A DNA stretch of 64,000 nucleotides from Diplonema papillatum. Lineage: Eukaryota > Euglenozoa > Diplonemea > Diplonemida > Diplonemidae. The notes beneath the pieces are model-generated. The model was not told where the DNA came from. It was given only the letters and a program-made list of their open reading frames with translations, and did not search any database. The stretch's first letter is position 1. Every line of letters begins with the position of its first letter. This document shows, one piece after another, positions 31,815 to 61,651 of the stretch. The stretch is taken from contig JAPJBO010000005.1 of NCBI GenBank assembly GCA_030068145.1, positions 496,001-560,000 of the forward strand, given 5' to 3'. A program made the translations under genes and the position numbers.

Positions 31815-32276
31815 CCTTTTTTTGAATAAGCACCTGCTTTCTAGGTAGTACTCGAGGAGGCCGCCAGTTGCAAAATCTCATCGCGACAAGAGTCCCAAAA
31901 TCAAACGAAACAGCGGTAAGTCAGCTGGGTTCACCGACGGGCGACGCCGACGGAAAAGGCCGATTTGTAGCTTCCTGTTGACGCTACGGAAAAGGTCGAT
32001 GTGTAGCTTCCTGTTGACGCTACGGAAAAGGCCGAGTTGTAGCTTCCTGTTGACGCTACGGAAAAGGTCGATGTGTAGCTTCCTGTTGACGCTACAGAAA
32101 AGGGCCAATTTGTTACTTCCTGTTGACGCTACGGAAAAGGCCAATGTGTAGCTTCCTGTTGACGCTACAGAAAAGGCCAATTTGTAGCTTCCTGTTGACG
32201 CTGCGGGAAAGGCCAATTTGTAGCTTCCTAGGTGGCCTCAGTCGAAATAAGCACCGGGCGGCCCCCCCGAGTATTT
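31815..32276 (+). repeat. Family A repeat, copy 10, carrying an internal minisatellite
   Basis: Intact ends: AATAAGCACCTGCTTTCTAG and ACTCGAGGAGGCCGCCAGTT at left, AATAAGCACCGGGCGGCC and CGAGTATTTTC at right. The body, normally about 100 bp here, is replaced by a 36-bp tandem array (31950-32230). Confidence 0.85.
31950..32230. repeat. 36-bp minisatellite inside family A
   Basis: About eight units of GACGCTACGGAAAAGGYC, then RATKTGTAGCTTCCTGTT. The GGAAAAGGCCGATTTGTAG word resembles the normal family A segment AAAAAAGACCCACTTTGTAG, which suggests local expansion of resident sequence. Being a multiple of 3, the array is open as a 12-residue repeat on the minus strand, but this is not evidence for a protein. 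Confidence 0.9.
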
Positions 32277-32547
32277 TCTTGTTACCTTTCCATTTCTGTT
32301 GCCGATCCCCTCTCTTGGATTCCATAGCGTTGACACACTGCAGCCCCGATCTCTTTTTTTTTTTTTTTTCTGGCTCTTGTTTCTTTCGCTTCTTTTCTGG
32401 CTGCGGCCGGGCCCCTGTTTTCTGAGCGTTTCGCTTCATTTTGGCAAAGATGGTGAGCAAATCCGCAACGAGGCGTGGGTGTATCGTCTGCCGCCCACGC
32501 CCTCCTGTCGCGCAGTATCACTGCGGAAACAATCCCCGGGGGAGTTG

Positions 32548-32800
32548 CCCACAATACCCACGATACAATTCCTGTCCACCCTATTCCTTTGGAATAGAAT
32601 TGCATTGCCTGCTGCCGTGTCTTTCACGGGCCCACCCACAATACCCACGATACAATCCCAGTCCACCCCATTCCTTGCAACAGAGTTTCATTGCCTGCTG
32701 CCGTGGGCACCCACAATACCCACGATACAATCCCAGTCCACCCTATTCCTTGCAACAGAATCGCATTGCCTGCCGCTGTGTTTTTCACGGGGCACACCCT
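32548..32800. repeat. Tandem repeat upstream of pseudokinase 1
   Basis: Three units start at 32548, 32635 and 32710 (spacings 87 and 75 bp). Each begins CCCACAATACCCACGATACA, followed by CCATTCCTTGCAACAGA and TTGCCTGCTGCCGTG variants. The array ends about 220 bp before the kinase ATG, so it lies in the likely promoter or 5' leader. Confidence 0.88.
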
Positions 32801-33020: not shown

Positions 33021-33932
33021 ATGTCCGTCCAAACCAACGCGTCGCAAGGCTTCGTCCTGGCCGGCAGGTACAAGGTGGCGAGCACGAAAAGTGGGTCCGC
33101 GGATATCTTCGGGAGCTGCACGTACGACGGCGTCGACCTTCAAAGCGGCGTGGAGGTCGGGGTGAAGGTCATCAGCAAGTTCGGCGACAACTCCTCGCGG
33201 GCGGTACAGAGCGAGGTAGACGCGCTGACGCGGCTGCGGAAGCGGCGGGTGGCCGCCGGCGAGCAGATGGTCGACTTTTTGCAGTCGCGGAGCAAGTACT
33301 ACGTCGTGACCCGAAACGGGAAGAAGGCCGCCGGCACCCTCCTCTCGTCCGTTTCGAGGCACGGGCCGTTCAGCGAGCACTCGGCGAGGTTCACCGTACG
33401 GGAAATCCTGAAGGCAGTGAACGACTTGCACGAGTCGGGCGTCTGCCACAGGGCACTCACCCTCCAGAACATCGGCGTTGACCAGTATACTGGCGAAGCC
33501 GTGATTTTCGACTTCTCGAGCGCTTCGACGGCGTCGAAGAAAACGCTGTTCAACGAGCAACCCGCGCTGACGTCGTTCACCGCGCCCGAAGTCCTCGCCC
33601 GGCACACGTACTGGGGCGAGCCGGCCGACGTGTGGAGCCTGGGGATGGTGTTCTACGCGATGCTGACCGGCGGCATGGCCTTCAGCGGCGAAACCAGGCC
33701 GGAGGCCCTGCTGCACCTGATGCGTACGACGGAGGTTGTGTACTCGCCGTCTTTGAGTGCGTCGGCGGCTGATTTCCTGCACAGCATGCTCCGCGTCGAC
33801 CCGGACGAACGGCTGAGCATTGCGCAGTTGCTGCGCCACCCTTGGTTGGCGGACGACGACAGCCTGTCCCTGACTCCCCGTTCGGAGAGTTCGTCGACGA
33901 CTCTCACACATGACTCTCTGGAGTCTGCGTAA
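33021..33932 (+). CDS. Protein-kinase-fold protein 1, probable pseudokinase
   Basis: A single-exon 303-residue protein spanning one complete kinase domain with a short Ser/Thr-rich tail. Seen directly: no glycine-rich loop (residues 17-43 lack GxGxxG). The ATP-site lysine is present in GVKVI (K49) and the helix-C glutamate in SEVDAL (E65). The catalytic loop is HRALTLQN (143-150), with Ala for the catalytic Asp. The metal-site motif is DFSS (164-167), with Asp kept. TAPE (187-190), DVWSLG (203-208), R264 and HPW (273-275) are intact. The last features resemble CAMK/Tribbles-type kinases. Loss of the HRD Asp normally abolishes phosphotransfer, so a scaffold or regulatory role is likely (inference). 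Partners are unknown. The ATG is the first after a CA- and pyrimidine-rich leader. Coding GC is well above the flanks. A paralogue lies at 45111. Confidence 0.9.
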   Translation: MSVQTNASQGFVLAGRYKVASTKSGSADIFGSCTYDGVDLQSGVEVGVKVISKFGDNSSRAVQSEVDALTRLRKRRVAAGEQMVDFLQSRSKYYVVTRNGKKAAGTLLSSVSRHGPFSEHSARFTVREILKAVNDLHESGVCHRALTLQNIGVDQYTGEAVIFDFSSASTASKKTLFNEQPALTSFTAPEVLARHTYWGEPADVWSLGMVFYAMLTGGMAFSGETRPEALLHLMRTTEVVYSPSLSASAADFLHSMLRVDPDERLSIAQLLRHPWLADDDSLSLTPRSESSSTTLTHDSLESA

Positions 33933-34164
33933 GCGGATCCACGTTCCGATGATCAGCATCACCAGGCCTACACGCGCCGTCTCGCTTTTTTTTCCGGGTG
34001 CAAACTAGAGCAGTCAATATTTTAGTTTACCTCCCGCTGGTGCGAGAACTGACGGCAGACGTGTGCGCCTCCAGCAATGGCGAACGTATTCTGTTTGCTA
34101 AGTGCCGACGAAACGGATGGGCCCTTTCGAGGACGCGAACGCACGTCTACTAGCTGAGAATCAA

Positions 34165-34345
34165 GCATCGCCGGTGTTACCCTTGGCCGACAGATGCGAC
34201 GACCGTTCGTGGTCGCCGACTCTTCGTCCAGAGAGCTTGACGTCTCTCATCCTGGAGCCCGTAAGTGGATCCACATTTCGATGACCAATATCTCCGTGCA
34301 TATTGTACCGACACGCGCTGTTGGGTGTGCAAAGCAGAGGAGTCC
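34165..34345 (+). pseudogene. Decayed copy of the pseudokinase 1 3' end
   Basis: TACCCTTGGCCGACAG corresponds to the HPWLAD codons of the upstream gene. GTAAGTGGATCCACATTTCG and ATGACCAATATC match the sequence across and beyond its stop codon (33929 onward: GTAAGCGGATCCACGTTCCG, ATGATCAGCATC). The offset is about 332 bp. The coding part is frame-broken and only the tail is preserved, so this is a relic of a tandem duplication. Confidence 0.65.
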
Positions 34346-34604
34346 CTCCTTATCAACCATTCAACCACAAATTGCCGGTACACCGCTTAGTTAACGGAGA
34401 TTTCTGAAGAGACTCCTCGAGCTCAACGATGCAATCGGAGAGAGGGAAAAAAAACCGAAAGGGGAAAAGGAAGAAAAAAGAAAGAAAAAAAAGCTCGCCA
34501 CCCTTAATACCCTTAACAATAGGGTCTTACGAAAGAATCCACCGTACCTCCGGAAATGTTCGTTGCCCACCCTCCCCCGCAAACCCGTGAATAGGTGCTA
34601 CGGG
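34346..34604. other. Unassigned sequence
   Basis: A-rich, with CGTACCTCCGGAAATGTTCG near 34550 resembling repeat L. No gene. Confidence 0.3.
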
Positions 34605-34720
34605 AGTATCTGGCAACCGCTGCTTAACAGTGCTCACGTGGGCGTAGTGCATGCTAATCCATGTGGTTCATGTACTTAAAAGAACTCAATGCTTAACAGT
34701 GCTCACGTGGGCGGTGTCTT
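34605..34720 (+). repeat. Cassette E, copy 3, with 24-bp direct repeats
   Basis: TGCTTAACAGTGCTCACG plus TGGGCG occurs perfectly at 34621-34644 and 34690-34713. Between lies the 45-bp cassette (TAGTGCATGCTAATCC through AAAAGAACTCAA). Confidence 0.9.
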
Positions 34721-35644
34721 CGGACAGCACCTCGTGATGTTCGCATCACAAAACAAAGAAGACAGTGAAATGGTCGTTACCTGGTCGGGTTTCGCTCGCG
34801 ACCGTTTCCTGAACAATCCTTCACTAAATCCGCGGTTAAATAACCTGGCCTCAGTGGTGCAAGCACCACGCGCTCTTCAAACCCAAGAAACATTTCCCCC
34901 CTTTATTTTTCGGGTCAGCTCTAAGAACAGCGATGGCGCAGATCTCGCGCGGATCAATGTTCTTCTGTCCCAACCTTTCTCTGCACGTCGGGGTCGTGAG
35001 AAGATCGTCGGCGAAGAAGTTTTCCGCCGATCGTTCGAAGCTGACCCATCGGCAATGAAAGGCCGTCCAGTACCCATCGCCTGCTTTCGCCTGTCATTGC
35101 CCATGTTTTGAGTACGCGAACCGAAAGTCTTCTTTCTTCCGCGTTAACATTGCATTGTTGATGAGCTAGTAGTAGTCGGCAGCGTACAACACGCACCTCA
35201 CCCAAGCAGGTGAGTTACGCTTGTGCAAACAACTGCTCTCCTGCGATCGCCGCTTTCCTTTCTTCTGTTTCGTACACTTCCAGCGAAGGGAACATTTCCG
35301 GAACAACGGTTGCGGAAAAGCGAAGCCAACGAAATAGTGCACACGCAGGAAACCCTCCGATGACAGGTTTATGCCCTGTGCACACGCGAAGATCAAGAAG
35401 CTTTTTGCCCTAATCATTATTCATCACCATCAGGGGTCAGTTGATGCTGATCGTCCGTTGCTTCGTTTATCAGTGCAAGCCTCAACTCCGGAAATGTGTC
35501 TCGTTCCTGGTTCCGCCGAGCAGTCGGCACCGAAAGATGTTGATCTTCGGGGCACACCGCACCCTCCGAAAGCGCAATGACGCGAGCGCCTTGCTCCTGC
35601 TGCCGGGTCAGGCTGGACCGTGAGGTTGGTCGACGGGGGATGCC
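34721..35644. other. Unassigned sequence with repeat L
   Basis: TCCGTTGCTTCGTTTATCAG and CTCAACTCCGGAAATGTG near 35455-35497 match 24530. No convincing gene. Confidence 0.35.
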
Positions 35645-36158
35645 GTGTGTTGGCGGGAAGTGCTCGGGCGAGGCCGCCAGCTGCACAAACAACCGCGAAA
35701 CGTGGGAGGAAACGCGTTGGTGCCCGCGCAAAGGAGAAGGTAAAACTGGGTTTAGTGCAGGGCCGGGTGGGGGGGCGCAAGCGTTGTTTGACGCAAAAAA
35801 GACTTTTTACATACGCGCCAGCTTGGAAGGAAATGCTCGACAATAACTGCCAGACAAAGAACCGAAGGGATCCGAAGTGCTGTAACTATCGAACCACTGT
35901 GTGTGAGGTCATGCGGGTCTACCCCAACACGACAAATCACACAAACACAACAGGTCAAAAGTCCTGAGTGAGAGAACAACACACGGTGGTGTAAGCGAAG
36001 AACAAATCAAGATTGTCTTTGTGCTGTATTTTCCCCCTCTACCTCTATATTTCCTCCCTTCCATTCGGAGTCAAAGCAGCTACGTCGAGTATTTCCCCCG
36101 CCGCCTGCCTCGGTCGAAGTATGCACCGAAAAGCCGGCCCTTCCACCGAGTATTTCAT
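35645..36158 (+). repeat. Family A repeat, copy 11, split by family B
   Basis: The left part carries GAAGTGCTCGGGCGAGGCC, GGTAAAACTGGGTTTAG and GCAAGCGTTG with CAAAAAAGAC. The right part at 36096-36158 carries CTCGGTCGAAGTATGCACCG and CCACCGAGTATTTC. The break is an inserted family B copy. Confidence 0.8.
35808..36094 (+). mobile_element. Family B repeat, copy 3, nested in family A
   Basis: Full family B copy: TTTTTACATACGCGCCAGC, GGAAATGCTCGAC, CACACGGTGGTGTAAGCG, CCATTCGGAGTCAAAGCAGC, GTCGAGTATTTCCCC. Interrupts the family A copy at 35645-36158. Confidence 0.88.
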
Positions 36159-36693
36159 GCGCCCCAACGCCTCTCCGTCGCCAACGCTCCCGTTCCGATA
36201 AACGTAACAACGTACAACGTGTCTTTACACTCAGTTTGAACAAGCGAAAACGTTTCCCCCGACGCTCATAGGACCCTAGTCCGCACGCCGCCGTCGCGCG
36301 TCCTGATGCGCGCTGCATTCCGCGCGCGGAATCGAAAATAGGAAGGACGCCAAATAGGGGGAGAGTGGGGGTGCCGTGCTGGCACTAATAATTCTGCCCC
36401 TCCGACGACTTTGCAGGAGGAAACGATGCAGTAAGATTTTCACTCCCCCCCCCCAAACCCCCAGGTTCTGCCAACGGCTCCGCAGTCTGGCCGCTTAGTG
36501 ACAGCACTGGGGGGAAGGTGTGGGTGGGGCATGCGACGCCTGTATTCTCCCGTATTTTGAGGCTGGATGGAGGCCCGAATCCGTCCTCGAAGCCTACTTC
36601 TGAGCATCGAACCCCTTTATCTCTGGTTTAGAAGTCCCTGTTGGTTGCACGAGGTCGTCCTTTGCCCAGAATCCTTCTGCCCCAAAAACCCCC
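36159..36693. other. Unassigned sequence, no gene seen
   Basis: Contains a C-tract near 36445. The long open frame at 36567-37133 is largely family F sequence. Confidence 0.35.
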
Positions 36694-37029
36694 CAGGCAT
36701 CTTGTTAAGAACCATCCATCCATCCATCAGCCGGCTGACCCCCCCCTCAGGCTATTTTCACTGTGGAGGGGGGAGACGCTACCTGTCACACTCTAAGGTG
36801 GTCACCACGGTGGGCGGTCAGAAAAAAAAAAATTTTTTTTTTGCCCCAAATACCCCAAATACCACACTTTGGAAAATTTTTGTGGGCCCACTTTTGGCAG
36901 GGAATTTTGACCATTTCACCTTAGAGAATTTGACCACCCAGCCTCCAAGGCAACTGCACTGTAGAGGGGGGGGGGGTCCGGTTTATCCGGCCATCCGGCC
37001 AAAGTGGCTGATCCTTAACAAGAGCGCTG
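36694..37029. mobile_element. Family F element, copy 2 (hAT-like ends)
   Basis: CAGGCATCTTGTTAAG to CTTAACAAGAGCGCTG, nearly identical to 25437-25780. AACCCCC occurs immediately outside both ends (36687-36693 and 37030-37036), giving a 7-bp, possibly 8-bp, target duplication. CAGG ends with a 7-8 bp duplication suggest the hAT superfamily. Confidence 0.82.
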
Positions 37030-37687
37030 AACCCCCCTCCCCCCCTTTCATTTCCGCGAGCACGTTCTTGCAAACCCCTCCTCCTTTTGGCGCTCTCCTC
37101 CTCGCACGTTTTGCCCGGCGGGCGCCCCGGTAGAGTGTAAGGAAGCCGAAGCGAGAGCCTGCCACCACGAAACTGCTGCTTCTGTTGCCACCGTTTTTGC
37201 GCCAAGCAGGCGGTGTCGAAGTGCATTCTCGAGGCGGCGGTGCGCCAGCTGCGCAATGAGGCCAAACAGAACCTCGTCTGAGGAGGAGTTGTGCGGCAAA
37301 CGACGGTCATTGACATGTTTCCGACGAGTTTCGAGCACCACACAGGCCGTAAGGTTAAGATTCACTGTGGGCACTGTGGCCACGAGCGTGCCACCTTCCA
37401 ATCGCACGCCTCGCACACATGTTCCCGAAAAGAACCAAAAAACGAAGCCTAGGCAACATCATTTGGAGACGGGGGAAAATCACGGAGAAAGGTAATAGCA
37501 AGTGTATGCTAATACCGCAAAATCTCTTGAGTTTGTGCTATCCGCGGCGAAGAAGGAAAACCCCTTCTTTTCCATCGGTCTTGACAAGAGCCGCGACCCA
37601 ACTACTCCTTCTCCTTGGAACCGCCAGTATATCAATTCGGCGGGTTTCGGAATTTTCCCTCGTCATCGAAGTCATGCCCGAAGCTTT
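37030..37687. other. Unassigned sequence with repeat N trace
   Basis: AAATCTCTTGAGTTTGTGCT and GACAAGAGCCGCGACCCAAC near 37520-37605 resemble repeat N. A repeat Q end fragment is at 37058-37078. No gene. Confidence 0.35.
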
Positions 37688-37850
37688 CTTTTTTTGTGTA
37701 AGCACCTGCTTCGTAGGAAATGCTTGAGGAGACTGCCAGTTGCGATAGATCAAGGAGGTAAATGTGCTGTAGCCCACACGAAACACAGGTAAATCTGGGT
37801 TTAGTGGGCGGGCGTAAGCGTTCAACAAAAAAGACCCACTTTGCGAGCGC
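37688..37850 (+). repeat. Family A repeat, copy 12 (right end missing)
   Basis: GTAAGCACCTGCTTCGTAGG, TTGAGGAGACTGCCAGTTGC, AACACAGGTAAATCTGGG and ACAAAAAAGACCCACTTTG, then unrelated sequence. Confidence 0.85.
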
Positions 37851-39204
37851 CACATGTACACCCTGGCTTCATGCGGGTGGCTGCTCTTTTGCTCCTCCAG
37901 GTGGGAGTCTTTGTGGACTCTGTGCTTTGCCAGGGTACCATATAGATCAAGAACGGCGCGGTTCCCCCTGTTGTGTGTACGTGTTTTTCACGAAGAAAAG
38001 TGCGTGTGCTCTCTGTTTCGGTTCTTTCTTTTATCCAGCACCCTCCGCAGGGTCCTCGACTGTCTCCCGAGGCCACCGCGAGGTACGGAGCTCTGGCCTA
38101 ACTTGGCAGTCCAGTCGCTGCCTTGCGAACGCCTAATGGCAGGGTGGGCGAGCGTCGTGTGTGCGACGAGACCACCCTCCGCTTGTGAACACCGGTAGGT
38201 CGAGGAAGAGTCATTGGTCCGATGCCTCCAATCATGCGCATTACCTTGGCCTTAACTCTTGTTTCGGAGTCTTTTGGTGTCTGCTCGACCCTTGCGGACC
38301 GGGTCTGTGAAGGATAATATTATATTGCACGCGGTAGAGTCCCAAGGCCGGTGCGGGCTCTCGGCTTAGTAGTGTAGTAGTGCCCATCAGTAGTACAGTA
38401 GCATGTAGCTCGCCATTCGACACGCAGGCCCCCGCAATCTGCGCCACCCGCATGGGGCGATGGGTTGCGGCAGGCGGGGTCAAATACCGTCGGGAGCACC
38501 TGCCTCGAGCGCGCTCCACCAACGGGGGCGCCGCATGCCATCCTTTCCCCCCGCAAGCTGCTGCCAAGGCGCTTCGTCGGGAAGAAGATGTCCTCTGCTG
38601 CTGCAGCCCTGTCGGCGTGCATCGTTCCCGCAGGAAACAAGAGCATTGGTCTCCCGCCTCCCGACGGGTTTTTTTTTCTCTTCATCTCTCTCTTTTTTTT
38701 GTAGGAAAAGAAACTTGTTTCTTTGAAGACTAATAATAATCCGAACGACAGGTTTGCCGCTCCCAATCCGTCCAGAGGAACAAAGTAGCTTGCTTCCCCT
38801 CCCTCCCTTCCCACTTGCTTCATTTTTCTTCGGAGTTCCCGTGGCACCACTTCATGTGGTCAGCAGCAAGATTAACAGCTTTCTGGCTTCACCTTTTGCT
38901 CCAACTATACTGCGCGCGGCAAGCAGAGCAGGAGCGGAGGACGAGAGTGACAGACACAAGCATAGGAGTGAGGATTTTATTATTCCAGTCTTTTTTCTTT
39001 TTGCGTTAACAGTGCGCTGCTGGTACTAAATATTAGTAGTTGGCAGCGCTACCTTACCAGAACTCGTCTCTCTCTTTTCTGCTGTTGCCAAGCTCCGTAC
39101 GCGTTTCTTTCCCATTCTCCCATCCCGTCCCAAATTTCACTACGACAAGCGTCCAGCATGGTTGCGAAGCAATACAAGCCAAGCATCATGAATGATACGC
39201 GCCT
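37851..39204. other. Unassigned sequence, no gene supported
   Basis: Open frames on both strands without domains. AGTAGTGTAGTAGTG-type short words occur near 38370. No paired repeat recognised. Confidence 0.35.
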
Positions 39205-39252
39205 ATCCTCCCTCGCCCCATGATGCCAATGTTTTGCCTAACCGCTAAGCTA
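39205..39252 (-). repeat. tRNA-like A-box fragment
   Basis: On the minus strand it reads TTTAGCTTAGCGGTTAGGC, a good tRNA D-arm/A-box, followed by ATTGGCATCATGGGGCG. There is no B-box or acceptor stem. The adjoining MITE begins exactly at its edge. Confidence 0.45.
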
Positions 39253-39411
39253 AAGGGGGGGGAGGGTCGAATAATAACAGTTATTTGACACACGTCTGGT
39301 TGTCTAACAACACCACCACTATTTGATCCTGCTACTGGTCGGCTACTCGGAACTTTTTAGCATTCGACAAATCGAATACTAACGCAGGTGTTGTTATTCG
39401 ACCCCCCCCTT
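39253..39411. mobile_element. MITE, family G copy 2 (inverted relative to copy 1)
   Basis: A 159-bp element with ends AAGGGGGGGG...GTCGAATAATAAC and GTTATTCGACCCCCCCCTT. It has TA on both sides (39251-39252 and 39412-39413). Internal sequence matches 10014-10169 in reverse complement (GACACACGTCTGGTTGTCTA, TTTGATCCTGCTACTG). Confidence 0.87.
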
Positions 39412-40224
39412 TACGATTCCCCACCGTGAATCTGTGGGTGTACTCGGGAAGGTTTTCCTGCGTATTGGCAGCTTGCCCAGATCCATACGTCGAGTGCACT
39501 TAGTAGCAGATTCGTCCGTGTTTAAGCCCAGCGAACAGTATGCGTTTGTAGAAACATCACAGGGGGGGCGGGGAAGAGGTAGGCGGCATTGAAGAGCAAG
39601 AAAAAAAAACAGTAAGAAAAAATAATAACAAAACGAGGCAAAAAAAACGTGTCCTACGAAAAGGGGTGCCTATGTGCCGGGGCAACAACCATTCCACCTC
39701 ATCGCATCTGCAGCATGTGTGGTGCATGTGCTGGTGATGGAATGCTGCTGTCCTACAACAACCCTCTACACCAAACACCACGTAGTATCAATGTACGTAG
39801 CTACACCCACACCACACAGGCAAGCTATATCCTCATGGTAGTAGCTTCGGTCACGATCCCTGTATCGTGACCTCGTGGTGCTAACCTAGCGAATCCTCCC
39901 TTGTTTTTGCAAGCGGTCCAATGCAGCTGCCTGCATTCCCAACCGGGTCGAAAGTTGACGCCCCCATCTGCCAATACAAAGTCTGGCACCCGATTCGCAC
40001 AGCGTTTGGGTGTAGAGAAAGACTCACGCTGCGACGAAAAGAAAAGGGAAGAAGAGACGTTCGGGGCTCTCCGCTCTCATGCATGGGAAACCAAATGATT
40101 CCCAGGTAGCCGGGTGATTTGAATGCAAAGACGGCCCTCGCGAAGAACAATGCGCAGGCCCGTCGGCCTGGGAGTTGTTTGGATGCTTTGTGCGGAGGGG
40201 TCCCATACGGGTTCTTTTTCTCTT
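39412..40224. other. Unassigned sequence, no gene seen
   Basis: Only short open frames without features. Confidence 0.35.
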
Positions 40225-40505
40225 TTTTCTCTTTCGAACAAGCACCTGCTTTGTAGTGAATACTCGGGGAGAGCCGCCAGTTGCAAATTCTCAACAGGTG
40301 TGGTACTCATCGGCATGCCGACGACTCCAAGGAGGAATATGTGCTGCAGCCCAACACGAAACACAGGTAAATCTGGGTTTTTGGTGCCGGGCGCGCAAGC
40401 GTTTCCACAAAGACAAAATTGCTACATTTGTGTTGCTGTCGGTTTTCTCCCTCCCTCCAGCCTCTCGTCGGAAACAGGCACCGGGCGGCTTCCTCCCGAG
40501 TATTC
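40225..40505 (+). repeat. Family A repeat, copy 13
   Basis: CAAGCACCTGCTTTGTAG, AATACTCGGGGAGAGCCGCC, the extra segment CTCATCGGCATGCCGACGAC, AACACAGGTAAATCTGGG, and the right end CAGGCACCGGGCGGCTTCC with CGAGTATTC. Confidence 0.85.
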
Positions 40506-40744
40506 TTCTCCGGTAGATTTAGTCGCAAGCATGCAAAATCCAAACAAGTTGCTGTGCGAGCGTCGCCTCGTCACGCGAGACGAGTACTTTCACAGGTACC
40601 TGTCACCTGGACAGTGGTGGCAAACGAGTCGTCGGATCCAGTGGCGGTTGAGCAGGCAAGAACAACAAGTGGCAACGAAGGGCGCCCTTGAAGTCAACGC
40701 TGATCGATCAGGTCAAGCGCGGGTACCCTGATTCAAGGTGAAGT

Positions 40745-40836
40745 CCCCTCTTGATAGACCGTGATAGATCGAAGAATACAGCATCGGTCAATTCGATGCA
40801 GCTCTTGGACTAGGGATGGACCTGATAGACCATGAT
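40745..40836 (+). repeat. Repeat H, copy 1
   Basis: CCCTCTTGATAGACCGTGAT, CGAAGAATACAGCA and ATTCGATGCAGCTCT match 53224-53316 in reverse complement at roughly 90%. A second partial unit follows (TGATAGACCATG near 40830). Confidence 0.8.
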
Positions 40837-41566
40837 TCATAGTGATAAACAGCGGCAGGCACTTCGATGCAGGTTCAAGAGATAGGGACGGACCGGCTCA
40901 TACCCGGCAAGCATATCCAGTGGACTCTCTTCGATGCGACCGTGCGCACGGAATGGAATGAGATGCCTTCTCTCTCCACATGTGATATCTGGCGAAGCAC
41001 CAGTCAAGGGAACAGACTTGAAAAGGTTCCCTTGAGCTTCTACGGCATCCGTGCGCGTGAAATGAGAGTTTGCTGCCAGCGCCCCAAAGCCGACGACCGT
41101 GCGAGGATCGGACTCGTGTTGCCCCGCACAATGCCGAGGGCAAAGCTCTCCCCATCGCCCGTGTAATTCCACCCTCCGTTCCCTCATTCTGCCTCCCTTT
41201 CTGCTTCAGTATACTCCTCCTCTTCGTACCGAGCGCGCACATGCGTGTCGCGCGCGGGAAAGAGAGAAAGGTGAAAACGCGTACTCCGTTGCTCTTTTTC
41301 TGGTTTCCAGCTGTTGTCAGATCCAGAAGGCGTAAACCACCCAGGACGAACCGTTCCTTCGGACATCCCCTGCCTGTGCTAGGCAAGAGAGCAGTTGGCT
41401 TGCCGTTCGCCGGCGTGTTGCCTGGAAGAATTGTCGGCATTCAGCCGATTGCTCGGTGGGCAATTGGCCGGCTGAAGATATCCGTCGTCCAGCAGTCGTA
41501 CCTGCTGTTTCAGTCAATTTGCCATCTGCGGAAAGCCGCCCAGCCGCTACCCATCCTATGCGCCAA
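40837..41566. other. Unassigned sequence, no gene supported
   Basis: Several overlapping open frames, none with a domain. Confidence 0.35.
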
Positions 41567-41835
41567 GAAAGCGGTCGTGCCCGGTGCTTGGTAGTTTCTG
41601 CGCTGTCACTGCAGGTGAAGAGAGCAGTCGTACCTGGGGACTGGGCAGTAGCCATCTGAAGAAGGCAGTCGTGTGGCCTTTCCCATGCTAAGAGCAGCCA
41701 TGCCTGGTGCTGGGAAGTTGCCATAGGAAGAAAACAAGGGTCTAGCCGCGCCTTAGAAGGAAGAGACAACAATCGTGCCCGGTGCTTGGTAGTTTCCATG
41801 TGAAGAAAGCAGTCGTCCAGCCAGTTCTCCATGCG
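41567..41835. repeat. Degenerate tandem repeat
   Basis: Four units with the word TCGTGCCCGGTGCTTGGTAG or variants start near 41571, 41624, 41697 and 41773, interspersed with GAAGAAAGCAGTCGT. Spacing varies from 53 to 76 bp. On the minus strand the units read as similar peptides (DCFLHMETTKHRA, PCFLPMATSQHQA, DCLLQMATAQSPG) in one frame, but no protein family is apparent. Confidence 0.7.
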
Positions 41836-42894
41836 AGGCAGATTCCACCTGCACATTCACATAATTGACTCCCCTCCAAATTCACAGGCATCACCCCGTT
41901 TACCAAAGCTCTAAAAAAAGAACTTCACCCCGTTTCAGAAAAAGCGCAAAGCGAAAGAAACCAAAAAGAAACGATGAAGGGAACCGAACTTCGTGCTTTG
42001 TTCAAGGACAGCAAAATCACATCGACTCAGATTTTGTACGCGCTCATGTTCCTGCTATGATCGTGGCTGCGTGAGCAAGCTTTGGAGTTGGAGAGGCAGC
42101 GAGGCCAGTTCCGGCGGCCCTGTTGGAATTGTCCGGCTAATCCCCTCGCCTGCTTTGTCCCCATGGAGAATACTTGTTGTATGCATTGCCTGCCTGTCTT
42201 ATGGCTCACAAAGACTCTACCGCTCGGTTCTACAGCAGCGTAAGTTGCTTTCTACCACGCGTGCTCGGCCTTTGGCCCGTCCTCTGACGCGCCTTTTTGG
42301 GCCGAAGATTTTTTTTTTTTTTTTGCCTTCTTTCCCAGCCACACATGGGCCTACCGCCTTGGTCTCCAGGAACGGTATAAGGTCCGGCAGCGCCAGCCTG
42401 GCCGCGATGGGTGTAGTCTCTTCTTAGCCCCCGCTGCGAAGCCAAAGTTCGAGAGGCCTGCGGTAAGCAAGTCATTCCCACGTTACCTGCCTTCGTCGTT
42501 GGTTCCGATGCCTCAGTTTTCCGTCATTGCGCAGCAGGCTGGGTTCACTCCGGCCGTTCGCGGTCAGGCTGTTGTCGAGCAAAACGCAGAGGTTGTTCCA
42601 GCAGCATTTTGCAATTTACTTGCTGTAGCAGTGTTCCACAACACCGAACCCTTTGAAAGCCCCGGGCTCCGAAGCGCGATTTCACCCCCAAAAAGTGTCA
42701 ACGGCTTCCTGCCAGATGCGACGATGGTCAGGCCCAGTGTGTGGTTCTCCCCCCCCACGGTCGCGAAAAGAAAACGCCCTTCTTCAATACTTTGGAGTCG
42801 AGGCTCTTTTCGCGCAGGACACCCTCCCCTAGGCGAGGCTGAGAACAAACGCGTGTTCTTGCTCAATTCCGTGCTCAATTCCGCAAGGCTTTTC
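41836..42894. other. Unassigned sequence, no gene supported
   Basis: Open frames on both strands without recognisable features. A T-tract at 42307-42324. Confidence 0.35.
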
Positions 42895-43110
42895 GCACAC
42901 AATGCAAAGACGGCGATATGTCTATTTGGCTTCGGAAGTTAGATGCGGGTCGATCCGACAAGTTTTGTGTGCACGGGCTTTGTTTTGCAGCACGTAGTCG
43001 ATGACTATTCCTTGTGACACCGACGAGTTGCCGGGTTCACAGACACAGAAACGTGCCAGTGGTTTTATTCGGTCCTCAGCCTGACGTACGGTGTGAGTTA
43101 CCCGTGACCC
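42895..43110 (+). repeat. Repeat M, copy 1
   Basis: CACACAATGCAAAGACGGCG, ATGTCTATTTGGCTTCGGAA, GACTATTCCTTGTGACACCG and GTACGGTGTGAGTTACCCGT all recur in reverse complement at 55520-55746. Confidence 0.85.
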
Positions 43111-43129
43111 CCTTTCTGAAAAATTCATT

Positions 43130-43368
43130 TTTCTTTTCGAATAAGCACCTGCGTGTTGCGAGGATATACTCGAGGAGGCCGCCATGTTGCAAAATCACGG
43201 AGGAAACGCGCCCCCGACACGAACCACAGGGTTCAACGCCGGGGTTTAAACGGTAAACAACAAACAGAAGGACTCCGTTTCTCGCTGTACTGTAGTCTTT
43301 CTAGTAGGAGCAGCCGCAGCCTCCGTCGAAATAAGCAGCTGGCGGCCCCACTTTTTCCGAGTGTTCTC
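43130..43368 (+). repeat. Family A repeat, copy 14
   Basis: TTCGAATAAGCACCTGCG, ATACTCGAGGAGGCCGCCAT, GCAGCCTCCGTCGAAATAAG, then GGCGGCCCCACTTT and CCGAGTGTTC. The GGTAAATCTGGG core is degraded. Confidence 0.8.
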
Positions 43369-44660
43369 GACGCAGCTTCCAGCTGCACCGAAGCTCCATT
43401 CGCTGCTCGTCCCCCTCCCTTCTCCCCTGTTCGCGCCTGAATCTGGTCAGGCCCGTGTGCAACTTGCATGCCTCGCGTCGCGGGTTCGAGCGACTTTCCG
43501 TTCGTGACGCGGCGACCCTATCTTTTCACTGGACCGGCGCTACCCACCGAGGGTCCTTTCGTACGAGAGGAGGAGGGGGGCGCGGGGGGGGGGGCAGTTC
43601 AGTTGCTTTCGACGCAACAGCATGAACACTGCGTTATCTTATCCTGAGCCTGCCACAGACCATATGCCCCGAGTCGCTTCGGTCGTTGTGTCATCGGCAA
43701 GGCCCCTTTTGCAGGTTTCCAACCATTACGCGTGCCAGCTGTCTGCGCAACCGCCGCCGGGAAACTTTTTCTTGGATGCTGCGTTCTCTCCCCATACACT
43801 CACCTCCTCGGTCAACCCGGATCCAAGAGCAAACCCAGCTCCCGAGCACTCAAAAATACAAAAAAGACAGTAAGGAAAAAAAGCACAAACACATTCGTAT
43901 TCCGCTGCCACACGTGTGCCATCGTGTGAGGAAACCTCCAGCTGCGTGGTTTCTATAAGCTCTTCTTATCCCCACTCCTCCCCACTGCGCGCCTACTAGG
44001 CAGACTTCGTGCGAACTATTCGGAGTTTTTGGACGGTGGTCGGCGCACTTGTTTCTCCAGCCGGTGTCAGTGCAGTCAACTGCGACACTTCGTTTCCGCC
44101 GGTCGAGGTGAAAAAACACGCCCCCGCCGCGCCCAAAAGAGTTCTGATCTGTATGTTCCTCGGTCCCCATTCTTTTTGTCGCTTCTTTGCTTTCTCCCCT
44201 TCTTTGGTTGCCGTGCCTCGTTCGGCGTTGCAAATCTCGTGCGATGCGTTTCTTTTCCTCAAGCTTGAGCTGGTGCTGCTGTCGTTTTCAGTGCAAGCAC
44301 GAAGACCACAACGTCAACGGCACGACCGGAAAATGCAGCGTTGAAGCCGGAAAGCTCAGCGACGTCACGACTGAGTGTGCAAGATGCGAAAGCGCTGTGA
44401 CGAAAACGAAAGCATGAAGTTGATGAGAGGTTCAACGCAGTGCCCCCTACGACGAGAATTAGCAAACCCGCGTGTTTTCATCAAACAGCACGTACACAAA
44501 GTTACATGATTCGTCTCAACCCGCCCCCCGATAGCACCGGAACAGGACCGAAAGTCCCCGTCCAAAGGACCCACTGATGAGCTCTAAGTCTGGATTGGTC
44601 CGATATTTCCTCAAAACCAGAACCAATTGCAACGACCCACTTCCCCATCCCACCTTCTGC
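43369..44660. other. Unassigned sequence, no gene supported
   Basis: A long G-run near 43575-43592 could form a quadruplex. No domain-bearing open frame. Confidence 0.35.
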
Positions 44661-44721
44661 TAACATCAAACATACATGAGAGGCAAGTTTCTGCCCGAAC
44701 ACTGCCAACTAAGATTCCCCC
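44661..44721 (-). repeat. tRNA-like retroposon head, family D
   Basis: On the minus strand: GAATCTTAGTTGGCAGTG, then TGCCTCTCATGTATGTTTGA. Diverged in the D arm. Confidence 0.5.
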
Positions 44722-44900
44722 CGGATTGGTCTGCGTTCAAGAGCGAAACCCGAGACGAAGAACGAGGTGCACACAACACCGCGGTGAAAAAATAATAAAG
44801 AGGACTAGTCCCTCAAGGTTTCATACCCTAACTGCGGAGTCGTACACTCCCTGCGACCCCTTTACCCTTTTCCTTTTTCCCTCTTTCTATTTTACACTTT

Positions 44901-44980
44901 CTTCGAAGAAGACTTGATGCTAGCATCAAACATGCATGAGAGGCAGTGTCCTACCTAATCATTAAACTAAGATTTCCCCC
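44901..44980 (-). repeat. tRNA-like retroposon head, family D (upstream of pseudokinase 2)
   Basis: On the minus strand: AAATCTTAGTTTAATGATTA, GGACACTGCCTCTCATGC, ATGCTAGCATCAAGTCTTC. Anticodon-stem pairing CTGC/GCAG-like and the loop CTCTCAT suggest a tRNA-Glu(CTC) origin. There is no T arm, so it is not a functional tRNA gene. Ends about 130 bp before the kinase ATG. Confidence 0.6.
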
Positions 44981-45110
44981 CACAACCTCAGTTTTCGGAT
45001 CCATTCAAAGACACAAAAAGAAAAAAAAAACCCGCGAACATATACACCTACACACACACACACACACACGCACAAGTACAAAACACAACCCATCCCACAT
45101 ATTTATCATA

Positions 45111-46070
45111 ATGACGCAGTACGAGCGTGGTTTTATGCTGTCGGGCACGTACGCCGTCGAGGCGGACGGTGAAGTGTTCGCGGACGGCCACAGCAGCGTG
45201 TCGTACAAGGGCACGGACAAGAAGAAGACGAAACGCGGCGGCAGCACGGTTTGGGTGAAGGTCATCGAGAAGAAGCACCGCGGCGGCGGCCCCGACGAGC
45301 GGGCCGAGCGCGAGATCGCGGCGCTGCGGATGCTGCGGAAGGCGCGGGCGGTCGGCTGCGCGACGGTCGTCGATTTCCTGCAGTCGAGGACGAAGTACTT
45401 CATCGTCACCTCCGCACCCCCTGCGGCCTTGTCCCTCCTCGACCACCTGCAGCAGCACGGCGTGTGCACCGAAGCCTTCGCGAGGCAAGTGTTCAAAAGC
45501 GCCGTTAAGGCCGTCGAGGACATGCACCGCTCCCGCGTGTGCCACCGGGCCCTGTCGCTCGAAAACGTGTGGCTCCGCGACCCAGCTGGAACCGACGTCC
45601 ACATCGTCGACTTCTCCAGTGCGTCGACCGCCCAGCCGCAGGCCCTCCTCTCCGAGCTCCCTGCTTTGAACTCGTTCAGCGCCCCCGAGATCCTCGCCCG
45701 GCAGCTGTACACGGCGGAGGCGGCGGACGCCTGGTCGCTGGGCGCGGTGCTGTACGCGCTGCTCGTCGGGAAGCTGCCTTTTTCCGACGCCTCGAGCCAG
45801 GACGGGCTTCTCCGCTGCATCCGGACTAACCGCCGCCCCGTGTTCCCGGCCGGGTTGTCGGCGGACGCACGGGACCTGGTGTCGGCTCTGCTGCAGATCT
45901 GCCCCGAGGACCGCATGCGCGTCGAGGCGGCGCTGCAGCACCCGTGGTTCGAGAGCTCATCCCCGTCGACTTCGTCGTGCTCGCAGCGGTCGAGCATGTA
46001 CAGCGACTCGGAGACTTTGCCTTCCACGCCGGGGGGCGCCGTTCCGTGCCTATCCCCTACCGAGGCGTGA
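45111..46070 (+). CDS. Protein-kinase-fold protein 2, probable pseudokinase
   Basis: A single-exon 319-residue paralogue of the 33021 gene with the same architecture. Visible landmarks: K50 in VWVKVI, E68 in EREIAAL, and the shared VVDFLQSRTKY (86-96; VDFLQSR and KY match paralogue 1). The catalytic loop is HRALSLEN (145-152), with Ala for the catalytic Asp. DFSSASTA (167-174) replaces DFG. SAPE (190-193), DAWSLG (206-211), R268 and HPWF (277-280) follow, then a Ser-rich tail of about 40 residues. The glycine loop is unrecognisable. Shared HRAL[ST]L and DFSSASTA in both paralogues, despite much divergence elsewhere, implies constraint (inference). The fold resembles CAMK/Tribbles members. Activity is probably absent or unconventional. 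The leader has a (CA)n tract. GC at codon third positions is very high. Confidence 0.91.
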   Translation: MTQYERGFMLSGTYAVEADGEVFADGHSSVSYKGTDKKKTKRGGSTVWVKVIEKKHRGGGPDERAEREIAALRMLRKARAVGCATVVDFLQSRTKYFIVTSAPPAALSLLDHLQQHGVCTEAFARQVFKSAVKAVEDMHRSRVCHRALSLENVWLRDPAGTDVHIVDFSSASTAQPQALLSELPALNSFSAPEILARQLYTAEAADAWSLGAVLYALLVGKLPFSDASSQDGLLRCIRTNRRPVFPAGLSADARDLVSALLQICPEDRMRVEAALQHPWFESSSPSTSSCSQRSSMYSDSETLPSTPGGAVPCLSPTEA

Positions 46071-46404: not shown

Positions 46405-46615
46405 TTCCGGGCCAGCCGCCGCCTGGCGTTCCCCGCCGGGTTGTCGGCGGACGCGCGGGCCCTGGTGGCGGCCCTGCTGCAGATCTGCCCCGAGGACGCA
46501 TGGGCGTCGAGGCGGCGCTGCAGCACCCGTGGTTCGAGAGCTTGTCCCCGTCGAATTCGTCGTGCTCGCAGCGGTCGAGCATGTACAGCGACTCGGAGAC
46601 TTTGCTTTTCAATTT
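46405..46615 (+). pseudogene. Frameshifted duplicate of the pseudokinase 2 3' end
   Basis: Matches 45820-46027 closely, from CCGCCGCCTGGCGTTCCCCG through CCGGGTTGTCGGCGGACGC, CTGCTGCAGATCTGCCCCGA and GCACCCGTGGTTCGAGAGCT to CGACTCGGAGACTTTGC. GAGGACGCATGGGCGTCGAG has lost one base relative to GAGGACCGCATGCGCGTCGA, so the frame is broken in subdomain XI. Only the last third of the domain and the Ser-rich tail are present. This is a truncated duplicate, not a gene. Confidence 0.88.
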
Positions 46616-60095: not shown

Positions 60096-61651
60096 ATGGC
60101 AGCTGGATTCCCGACCAATTACGGCTATCAGGTGCCGTACCAGCGGCAGGCGACCGGGTACAACCCCATGGACGCGGAGAGCAGGAAGAGGAAGCTGCAG
60201 GAGAACTGGAAGAACAAGAAGATCAGGAGGGACGAGGAGTACGAGTTCAACAAGTGCGCCGAGGCGAACGGGACCCTGTACAAGAAGGTGGAGGACGCGA
60301 ACGGCGTGAAGTACGACTGCGCAGTGTGCAAGATGTTTGTGGCGGCTTATGCGTTTTACACCCACGTGGTGTCGCAGGAGCACAAAAACAGCGTGAAGAA
60401 CTCGAAGTGGGAGGAGGACCAAGCCTTCATTGACGCGGAGCGTCAGTACTGCGTGGAGGCGGAAAGGCAGGCGACGGGCGCGGTGCTCTGCGAGCCGTGC
60501 AAGCGGTACATCAACCCGTCGTGCTGGGAGGCGCACATCAAGGGAAAGCCCCACAGGCACGCCCAAGGGCTGCCGCCTCTCGCCACGACGCCCACGTCGA
60601 GCAGCACCATCAACACCAACACCACCCGCCACCCCGCCAGCGCCTTCCGCACCGGCAACGATTCGGTCAACGGGCCCTTGCTCGACTCCTTCGAGGACCA
60701 AGAAAACATCCCCCTCTTCTGCGTGGGAGAGGACATGTGGAAGCTCGACCTCACCTACAACGACGCCAACGTCGCGGTCGTCGAAGAGTACAAGACCGAA
60801 ATGTGCCTCATCGACCAGAAGCGGTGGGGGTCCAAGGCAGGGCCCGCCATGGGGCCGGCCCTTGTGTTCGATCCCGAGAAGTGCGCCCTCGGCGTCTGCT
60901 ACAAAATTACCCGCGCAACGATGAACGAGCTTTGCGACGTCAAGAAGCCCGAAAACGTCAAACTCGTCGAGGTCACGGTCAGAATAGAAGAAGAGCAAAC
61001 GCGTGCGGTTGCGTTCTGCATCAAGAACCACGTTCCCATCGACGTCGAGTCCACGGTCTGTTACTTGCATCCGTTTCTTCCTTTCGGCTCTGTAGTGAGG
61101 CGACCGCTCCAGCTCGTTTCTCTTCTGGTTCTTGGGAAGGTCAGCGCAGTAGCGATGCCTATGAGAAGACATGTATTGTAATGCAGGTGAGCGGGGTGAG
61201 GCCGGACGCACCAGGAGTTTGCAACAGCTAGTCTCACTGCACAGAGAGAGCTTGCCACAACCTCGGGTGAGGTTGCACGGGGCCGAAAACCCTGCTGACA
61301 ACCTCCCACGCTCTATCCGTCCCCCGAAGGCTGCCCCATCCACCCTTCCCACCCTTCGGAAAGGAGTCACAGGACCCGAAAAGCAGCGTGTCGGAAACTC
61401 AAAAAGCAGACCAGTGAGAGTGACGGCTATTCTTCGATTCTGCCGTTAACCACTTAAAGCCCTGAACTTAAACACACAACCACACACACACACACACACA
61501 GGCGAAGTACGTCGCGAGCGCTATTGGCCCCCAGGGAGCCAACTTCGGCCTCCTCACGCGTGTTGTTCACGAGCTGGAAAAGCAGGACTGGAAGGACCCG
61601 TACTTCAAGGACCTGCTCACCGCCTGCAACAAGCTTATCTGGAAGGCGTGA
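60096..61651 (+). CDS. Two-zinc-finger protein with GGCT-like C-terminal domain (two exons)
   Basis: Proposed join(60096..61055,61502..61651), 369 residues, likely nuclear or RNA-associated. The ATG has a strong context (GCAAGATGGC). Residues 28-50 are basic (RKRKLQENWKNKKIRR). Two U1/matrin-like fingers follow, each Cys-x2-Cys-x11-His-x5-His (C75, C78, H90, H96; C132, C135, H147, H153). After a Ser/Thr linker (165-195), residues about 206-369 follow the strand and helix order of gamma-glutamylcyclotransferase (GGCT): GPALVF, ALGVCYKIT, LVEVTVRIEE, AVAFCIKN, then exon 2 AKYVASAIG and LLTRVVHELEK. The usual YGSN loop is replaced by VGED, and the LDxxEG catalytic segment by LCDVKKPEN, so GGCT activity is doubtful. 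Unspliced, exon 1 would run to a stop at 61181 through repeat sequence. The finger call is firm; the GGCT fold is inference. Confidence 0.82.
61056..61501 (+). other. Proposed 446-nt intron containing repeat J copy 5
   Basis: Phase 0. The donor is ACG|GTCTGT at 61056. The acceptor is a (CA)n tract ending CACAG at 61501. Removing it joins exon 1 to a frame that continues the GGCT-like alignment with the expected loop length. An alternative phase-0 donor is GTAGTG at 61092, which would add 12 residues. Repeat J lies at 61135-61210 (AAGGTCAGCGCAGTAGCGAT, ATGCAGGTGAGCGGGG). The acceptor lacks a pyrimidine-only tract, the donor is weak, and cDNA would settle both. Confidence 0.6.

Follow-up and report, generated by a model that had tools for sequence, protein, structure and literature searches.

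A protein with the kinase fold is classed as a pseudokinase when at least one of the β3 Lys, the HRD Asp, and the DFG Asp is lost (PMC4718504, in part). In VRK3, the nucleotide pocket is filled by a Phe of β7 that completes the spine, and the glycine loop carries an acidic residue (PMC2639636, in part). In KSR1, the substitution A587F blocks adenosine triphosphate (ATP), keeps the closed fold, and completes the catalytic spine; Phe at the Ala/Val position abolishes the activity of PKC and Akt (PMC12721161, in part). Here, we describe a trio of paralogous pseudokinase genes, P1, P2, and P3, from Diplonema papillatum. P1 and P2 lie in a window of 64,000 nucleotides of contig JAPJBO010000005.1 (C5; positions 496,001 to 560,000), and P3 lies outside it on the same contig. 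D. papillatum is a marine, single-celled organism. Its predicted kinases are comparable in number to those of human and plants (PMC10161547, in part), and it has been described as genetically tractable (PMC8611851, in part). The trio is a genuine, retained pseudokinase family of an already known kind. Its genes are as follows.

P1, 33021..33932, + strand: pseudokinase paralogue, a single open reading frame from ATG to stop, 303 amino acids
P2, 45111..46070, + strand: pseudokinase paralogue, a single open reading frame from ATG to stop, 319 amino acids
P3, C5:493629-494543, + strand: third paralogue, 304 amino acids including Met, 1.5 kilobases (kb) upstream of the window

The three reading frames are all intact. 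Their products score above the curated cut-off of the Pkinase profile PF00069 (135.2 bits for P1, 124.6 for P2, and 125.9 for P3; cut-off 31.7) over most of the domain (profile positions 13-263, 10-263, and 13-263 of 263, respectively), which identifies the eukaryotic protein kinase fold in each. P1 and P2 share 42% identity across 280 aligned positions; counted per 298 aligned positions, the identical residues number 127 or 122 in two different alignments. The genome (271,365,524 bases in 2910 contigs) was searched with each protein; these searches score the best candidates only, and one kinase search scored 129 of 919, so more kinases exist. P1 retrieved P2 at 205.2 bits and P3 (open reading frame C5:493656-494516) at 198.8 bits, with the next match at 80.3. 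The same trio was returned by P2 (205 to 209 bits, next match 91.9) and by P3 (201 to 209 bits, next match 85.1). No close homologue with a normal HRD and DFG, an outcome that would have weakened the reading made from the sequence alone (the sequence-only reading), was found in these three reciprocal searches, as all non-trio matches stayed at or below 92 bits. That reading had described two paralogues; the pair is real, and P3, upstream of the window, brings the family to three. The gene starts are spaced by 35.4 kb (P3 to P1) and 12.1 kb (P1 to P2), all on the + strand, and a 124-kb scan of C5 found no fourth member. Among the best candidates scored by the genome searches, the family forms a local cluster of three genes. 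When viral_contigs was scanned once with the trio alignment, 93 pattern matches were obtained with no relative among them, and no description of the family was found in the literature on pseudokinases of diplonemids and Euglenozoa, going by titles and the openings of abstracts.

The three proteins share one pattern of catalytic-site alteration. In P1 and P2, the changes lie at the following positions.

P1 HRA, 33447..33455, + strand: catalytic Asp replaced by Ala, codons CAC AGG GCA
P2 HRA, 45543..45551, + strand: codons CAC CGG GCC
P1 DFS, 33510..33518, + strand: codons GAC TTC TCG
P2 DFS, 45609..45617, + strand: codons GAC TTC TCC

For comparison, one kinase domain was sampled from each of 95 of 101 loci (six flanking stretches excluded). 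After removal of near-copies, 88 non-redundant domains (the trio and 85 others) were used for the residue counts and the tree. The catalytic loop reads HRALTLQN in P1, HRALSLEN in P2, and HRALTLET in P3. At the position of Asp166 in PKA numbering, the trio has Ala in 3/3, whereas all 85 other domains of this genome have Asp. Lys168, the Lys of HRDxK, is replaced by Thr, Ser, and Thr in P1, P2, and P3, against 84 Lys and one Arg, and the Gly of DFG is Ser in all three, against 83 Gly, one Asn, and one Ala. The β3 Lys (Lys72), the helix-C Glu (Glu91), and the DFG Asp (Asp184) are kept throughout; P1 and P2 also have APE and the late Arg, and Asn171 is Asn in these two and Thr in P3. By eye, the P+1 motif GTxxY is replaced by ALTSF, ALNSF, and CLTAF. 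P1 and P2 share VDFLQSR(S/T)KY and DFSSASTA, and P3 has DFSSASCA. The translations thus bear out the sequence-only account of the two active sites and their shared motifs in every residue.

Under the definition given above, the replacement of the HRD Asp by Ala in 3/3 makes each member a pseudokinase. When both Asp166 and Lys168 are lost, phosphotransfer is very unlikely. The trio is accordingly predicted from its residues to lack phosphotransfer. That the proteins are instead active kinases with an unorthodox mechanism would fit the retention of Lys72, Glu91, and Asp184, and CASK and Haspin are active despite altered motifs (PMC4718504, in part). With Asp166 and Lys168 both gone in 3/3 and the P+1 motif altered, we consider this very improbable. 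The pattern TGCCAC-MGN-GCN ... GACTTC-WSN, which requires Cys before His and particular codons and so gives only an incomplete census of HRA plus DFS, had seven matches in the genome against two for a reversed control. Three of the seven are the trio; in the other four, GACTTC is out of frame (two) or a stop lies between the motifs (two).

The altered residues are unlikely to be sequencing errors, the other outcome that the sequence-only reading had flagged. For the HRA alanine, P1 uses GCA, whereas P2 and P3 use GCC; the DFS serine is encoded by TCG or TCC. GCA needs two base changes to become either Asp codon, and GCC needs one. Two changes separate TCG and TCC from any Gly codon (GGN), and identical residues occur in three separate genes with differing codons.

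In the tree of the 88 domains, the trio forms one clade with support of 100/100 on a stem of 1.14 changes per column; where it joins the other kinases is weakly supported (85/71 with domain L011). Because the clade is fully supported and its stem is long, activity was probably lost once, on the trio stem, before the duplications. The sequence-only reading took the shared deviations as retained; they are kept in all members, and the tree makes them best read as one inherited event. At fourfold sites of identical residues, the three pairs agree at 16/41 (15.3 expected), 17/48 (17.4), and 13/37 (14.9), that is, about as often as by chance, and synonymous sites are saturated among the trio. The ratio of nonsynonymous to synonymous substitution (dN/dS) between P1 and P2 (Nei-Gojobori dN 0.60, dS 0.85, ratio about 0.7) was set aside on this ground. 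Although synonymous sites have been randomized, neither the altered residues nor the frames have been lost, and we read that, from the residues and frames and not from a numeric dN/dS, as purifying selection on a non-enzyme. As an alternative, the genes could be decaying toward loss, or be assembly errors, in a region that is rich in repeats and holds a broken partial copy of P2. This is hardly credible given three intact frames after synonymous saturation, a DFS Ser kept via TCG and TCC, and an HRA Ala kept via GCA and GCC. The claim of a real, retained kinase-fold family is upheld by the same intact frames together with the PF00069 matches.

The nucleotide pocket, whose changes the sequence-only reading had passed over, differs among the three proteins. 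The positions corresponding to PKA A70 (the Ala of VAIK) and PKA L173 (adenine contact) in P1 and P2 are as follows.

P1 Gly47, 33159..33161, + strand: VAIK-Ala position (VGVK; PKA A70)
P2 Trp48, 45252..45254, + strand: VAIK-Ala position (VWVK; PKA A70)
P1 Gly152, 33474..33476, + strand: PKA L173 adenine-contact position
P2 Trp154, 45570..45572, + strand: PKA L173 adenine-contact position

By alignment, P1 has Gly at both adenine-capping positions, P2 has Trp at both, and P3 has Trp at A70 and Phe at L173. The register at A70 is supported by the profile alignment against PDB, where VAVK of AMPK pairs with vwvk of the trio without a gap. Among the 85 other domains, the A70 position holds 73 Ala, six Val, two Cys, one Pro, and three gaps, so that none of the 82 with a residue there has an aromatic. 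The L173 position holds 70 Leu, nine Val, three Met, two Phe, and one Ile, and both domains with Phe have Val at the A70 position. The gatekeeper is Thr in the trio and in 1/85 others (2/85 gaps). The first hinge residue is Arg, Ser, and Arg in P1, P2, and P3, and Glu or Asp in 72/85 others. The residue before DFG is Phe, Val, and Val, against 41 Ala, 16 Thr, 11 Ser, seven Gly, five Ile, four Cys, and one Val. The glycine loop is broken (alignments, by eye): G50 is Ala, Ala, and Val, G52 is Ile, Gly, and Gly, and G55 is Ser, Ser, and Asn in P1, P2, and P3, and the residue after G50 is Asp in all three.

With Trp at the VAIK alanine and Trp or Phe at L173, the pockets of P2 and P3 would be blocked by aromatics, and the two proteins may be locked folds independent of ATP; the pocket of P1 may be open or altered. 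We consider it fairly probable that the trio members are CAMK-like pseudokinase scaffolds or allosteric partners whose pocket is plugged in P2 and P3, the scaffold role being proposed by analogy. The sequence-only reading had instead suggested ATP-binding scaffolds. In that case, the trio would be inactive and would bind ATP in the manner of STRAD-alpha or obscurin PK1, with the nucleotide stabilizing the fold and controlling partner binding. The conserved β3 Lys, helix-C Glu, and DFG Asp, with Asn171 in P1 and P2, are consistent with nucleotide binding. Moreover, obscurin PK1, in which the HRD Asp is Gly, binds ATP and adenosine diphosphate without metal (PMC10129394, in part), and STRAD-alpha and HSER have ATP bound despite a degraded glycine loop (PMC4718504 and PMC2639636, both in part). 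The aromatics of P2 and P3 at both capping positions, the Phe, Val, and Val before DFG, the broken glycine loop, and the change of Asn171 to Thr in P3 argue against it. We regard ATP binding as possible but rather doubtful. The plugged scaffold is favored over it because the pocket, too, is altered, and VRK3 and KSR1 provide precedents.

For the plugged scaffold, we propose the following course. An ancestral kinase would have lost the catalytic Asp and the catalytic-loop Lys once and then duplicated. The products would fold in a closed, active-like form held by the Lys–Glu pair, the His and Phe spine residues, and the APE–Arg contact. The catalytic spine of P2 and P3 is probably completed by their aromatics at the two adenine-capping positions, which would take the place of ATP. 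The trio would then act without catalysis, either as a scaffold or as an allosteric partner; the dead catalytic loop and the activation segment would form its contact surface, and regulation would take place at the Ser-rich tail. Invariant columns amount to 7/12 in the catalytic loop and 15/27 in the activation segment, against 91/290 overall (P 0.0055 for the activation segment, uncorrected, 13 regions). Because both regions are conserved above the overall level, the pattern suggests that the dead active-site face may be a binding surface. The last 30 residues contain 8, 7, and 12 Ser in P1, P2, and P3, and these tails may be regulated by phosphorylation.

Several points weigh against this proposal. 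Lys72, Glu91, and the DFG Asp in 3/3 and Asn171 in 2/3 would be needless if nucleotide were never met, and P1 has no aromatic plugs. The engineered precedent uses Phe, whereas P2 and P3 have Trp at the VAIK position, and ATP binding is known from certain pseudokinases whose motifs are no better (PMC4718504, PMC10129394, and PMC2639636, all in part). AlphaFold on the three-row trio alignment gave a mean predicted local distance difference test score of 54, which leaves the Trp plug to be placed from the alignment. The sampled loci were in part hand-picked from search matches (60) and are biased toward recognizable kinases. As to the binding surface, the P value of the activation segment becomes about 0.07 after Bonferroni correction for 13 regions, and the β3 strand, with 6/10 invariant columns, matches the catalytic loop in conservation.

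A more specific proposal, which we regard as unlikely, is that the three proteins form a matched set, the upper and lower faces of the adenine site having changed in concert. P2 and P3 would be permanently locked mimics of the ATP-bound state, and P1, with Gly at both capping positions, the Thr gatekeeper, and Phe before DFG, would accommodate another ligand in an enlarged pocket and act as the switchable partner. Such a set, perhaps confined to diplonemids, would be a natural, duplicated counterpart of the engineered catalytic-spine lock.

The surroundings of the trio contain a further P2-related feature.

Partial copy of the P2 3' coding end, 46406..46611, + strand: 92% over 201 nucleotides, with a one-base shift

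The sequence-only reading did not mention it. It starts 0.34 kb past the P2 stop and is probably a non-functional remnant. It resembles the "repeat-bounded genes" described in the D. papillatum genome (PMC10161547). Beyond the trio and this fragment, the sole other clear kinase in the 124-kb scan lies at about 479.9-481.1 kb of C5 (L036:2950-4383), some 13 kb upstream of P3; it is MAPK-like by eye, is split over at least two open reading frames, and has HRD and DFG intact. A Pirin-like gene lies upstream of the kinase cluster (L037:3888-4937), and a glycoside hydrolase family 3 gene lies downstream (L038:3022-4614). About 0.8 kb upstream of P1 lie around eight copies of a 36-base repeat (31950-32229), and after them comes a 73-base repeat in three copies (32546-32780). 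Elsewhere in the window, a tandem array of a 59-base unit (1285-2668; 24 copies, 95% matches) and two copies of a 68-base unit (1034-1170) were found; arrays of a 68-bp stretch of mitochondrial origin are reported from this genome (PMC10161547, in part). An open reading frame of 361 amino acids (60096-61181) is ChaC-like at residues 208-297 (30.2 bits, cut-off 21), and its N-terminal half is zinc-finger-like (CxxC...H) by eye. Rfam at gathering thresholds and ARAGORN gave no matches in the 64-kb window.

The best sequence matches in the PDB are MELK for P1, Snf1 for P2, and AMPK-alpha2 for the trio profile. MELK, AMPK-alpha/Snf1, RSK, and CaMK1 are kinases that we take to belong to the CAMK group; they are HRD/DFG enzymes, whereas the trio has neither the catalytic Asp nor the catalytic-loop Lys. 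PLK4 and ULK1 are also among the best 60 PDB matches listed, and the CAMK assignment is not firm. The resemblance to CAMK/Tribbles proteins without the Tribbles SLE signature, noted from the sequence alone, holds in that the best matches are mostly CAMK kinases and that both the SLE-type motif and the LxDLKLRK-type loop are absent from 3/3. The motif [DE][QE]?.VP[DE]?, presumably the COP1-binding motif of the Tribbles C terminus, has no match in any of the three. Tribbles and STK40 resemble the trio as pseudokinases with a non-Ala residue in β3 and an altered glycine loop; in Tribbles, however, the catalytic-loop Asp is kept (LxDLKLRK, LRDLKLCR) and DFG is replaced by ESLED or ENLED, the reverse of the trio (PMC7586955, in part). 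PSKH2 (HRN) likewise has lost the catalytic Asp and kept the DFG Asp, but it retains the β3 Ala (FAIK), the catalytic-loop Lys, DFG, and two of the three loop glycines (GTGSFS), which the trio does not (PMC7586955, in part). VRK3 shares with the trio a dead catalytic site and an acidic glycine-loop residue, and its adenine site is filled by F313, which presumably corresponds to PKA L173. It is a relative of VRK2 with GFG and HGN, whereas the DFG Asp persists in the trio, and P2 and P3 have the β3 Trp in addition (PMC2639636, in part). The engineered KSR1 A587F, PKC, and Akt carry a large aromatic at the VAIK alanine, as do P2 and P3 (PMC12721161, in part). Those cases are laboratory-made and use Phe, whereas P2 and P3 are natural and have Trp paired with an aromatic of the C-lobe. 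With one shared dead site and three different adenine pockets, these old paralogues offer a natural series for the question of whether a kinase fold can dispense with ATP when its catalytic spine is filled from within.

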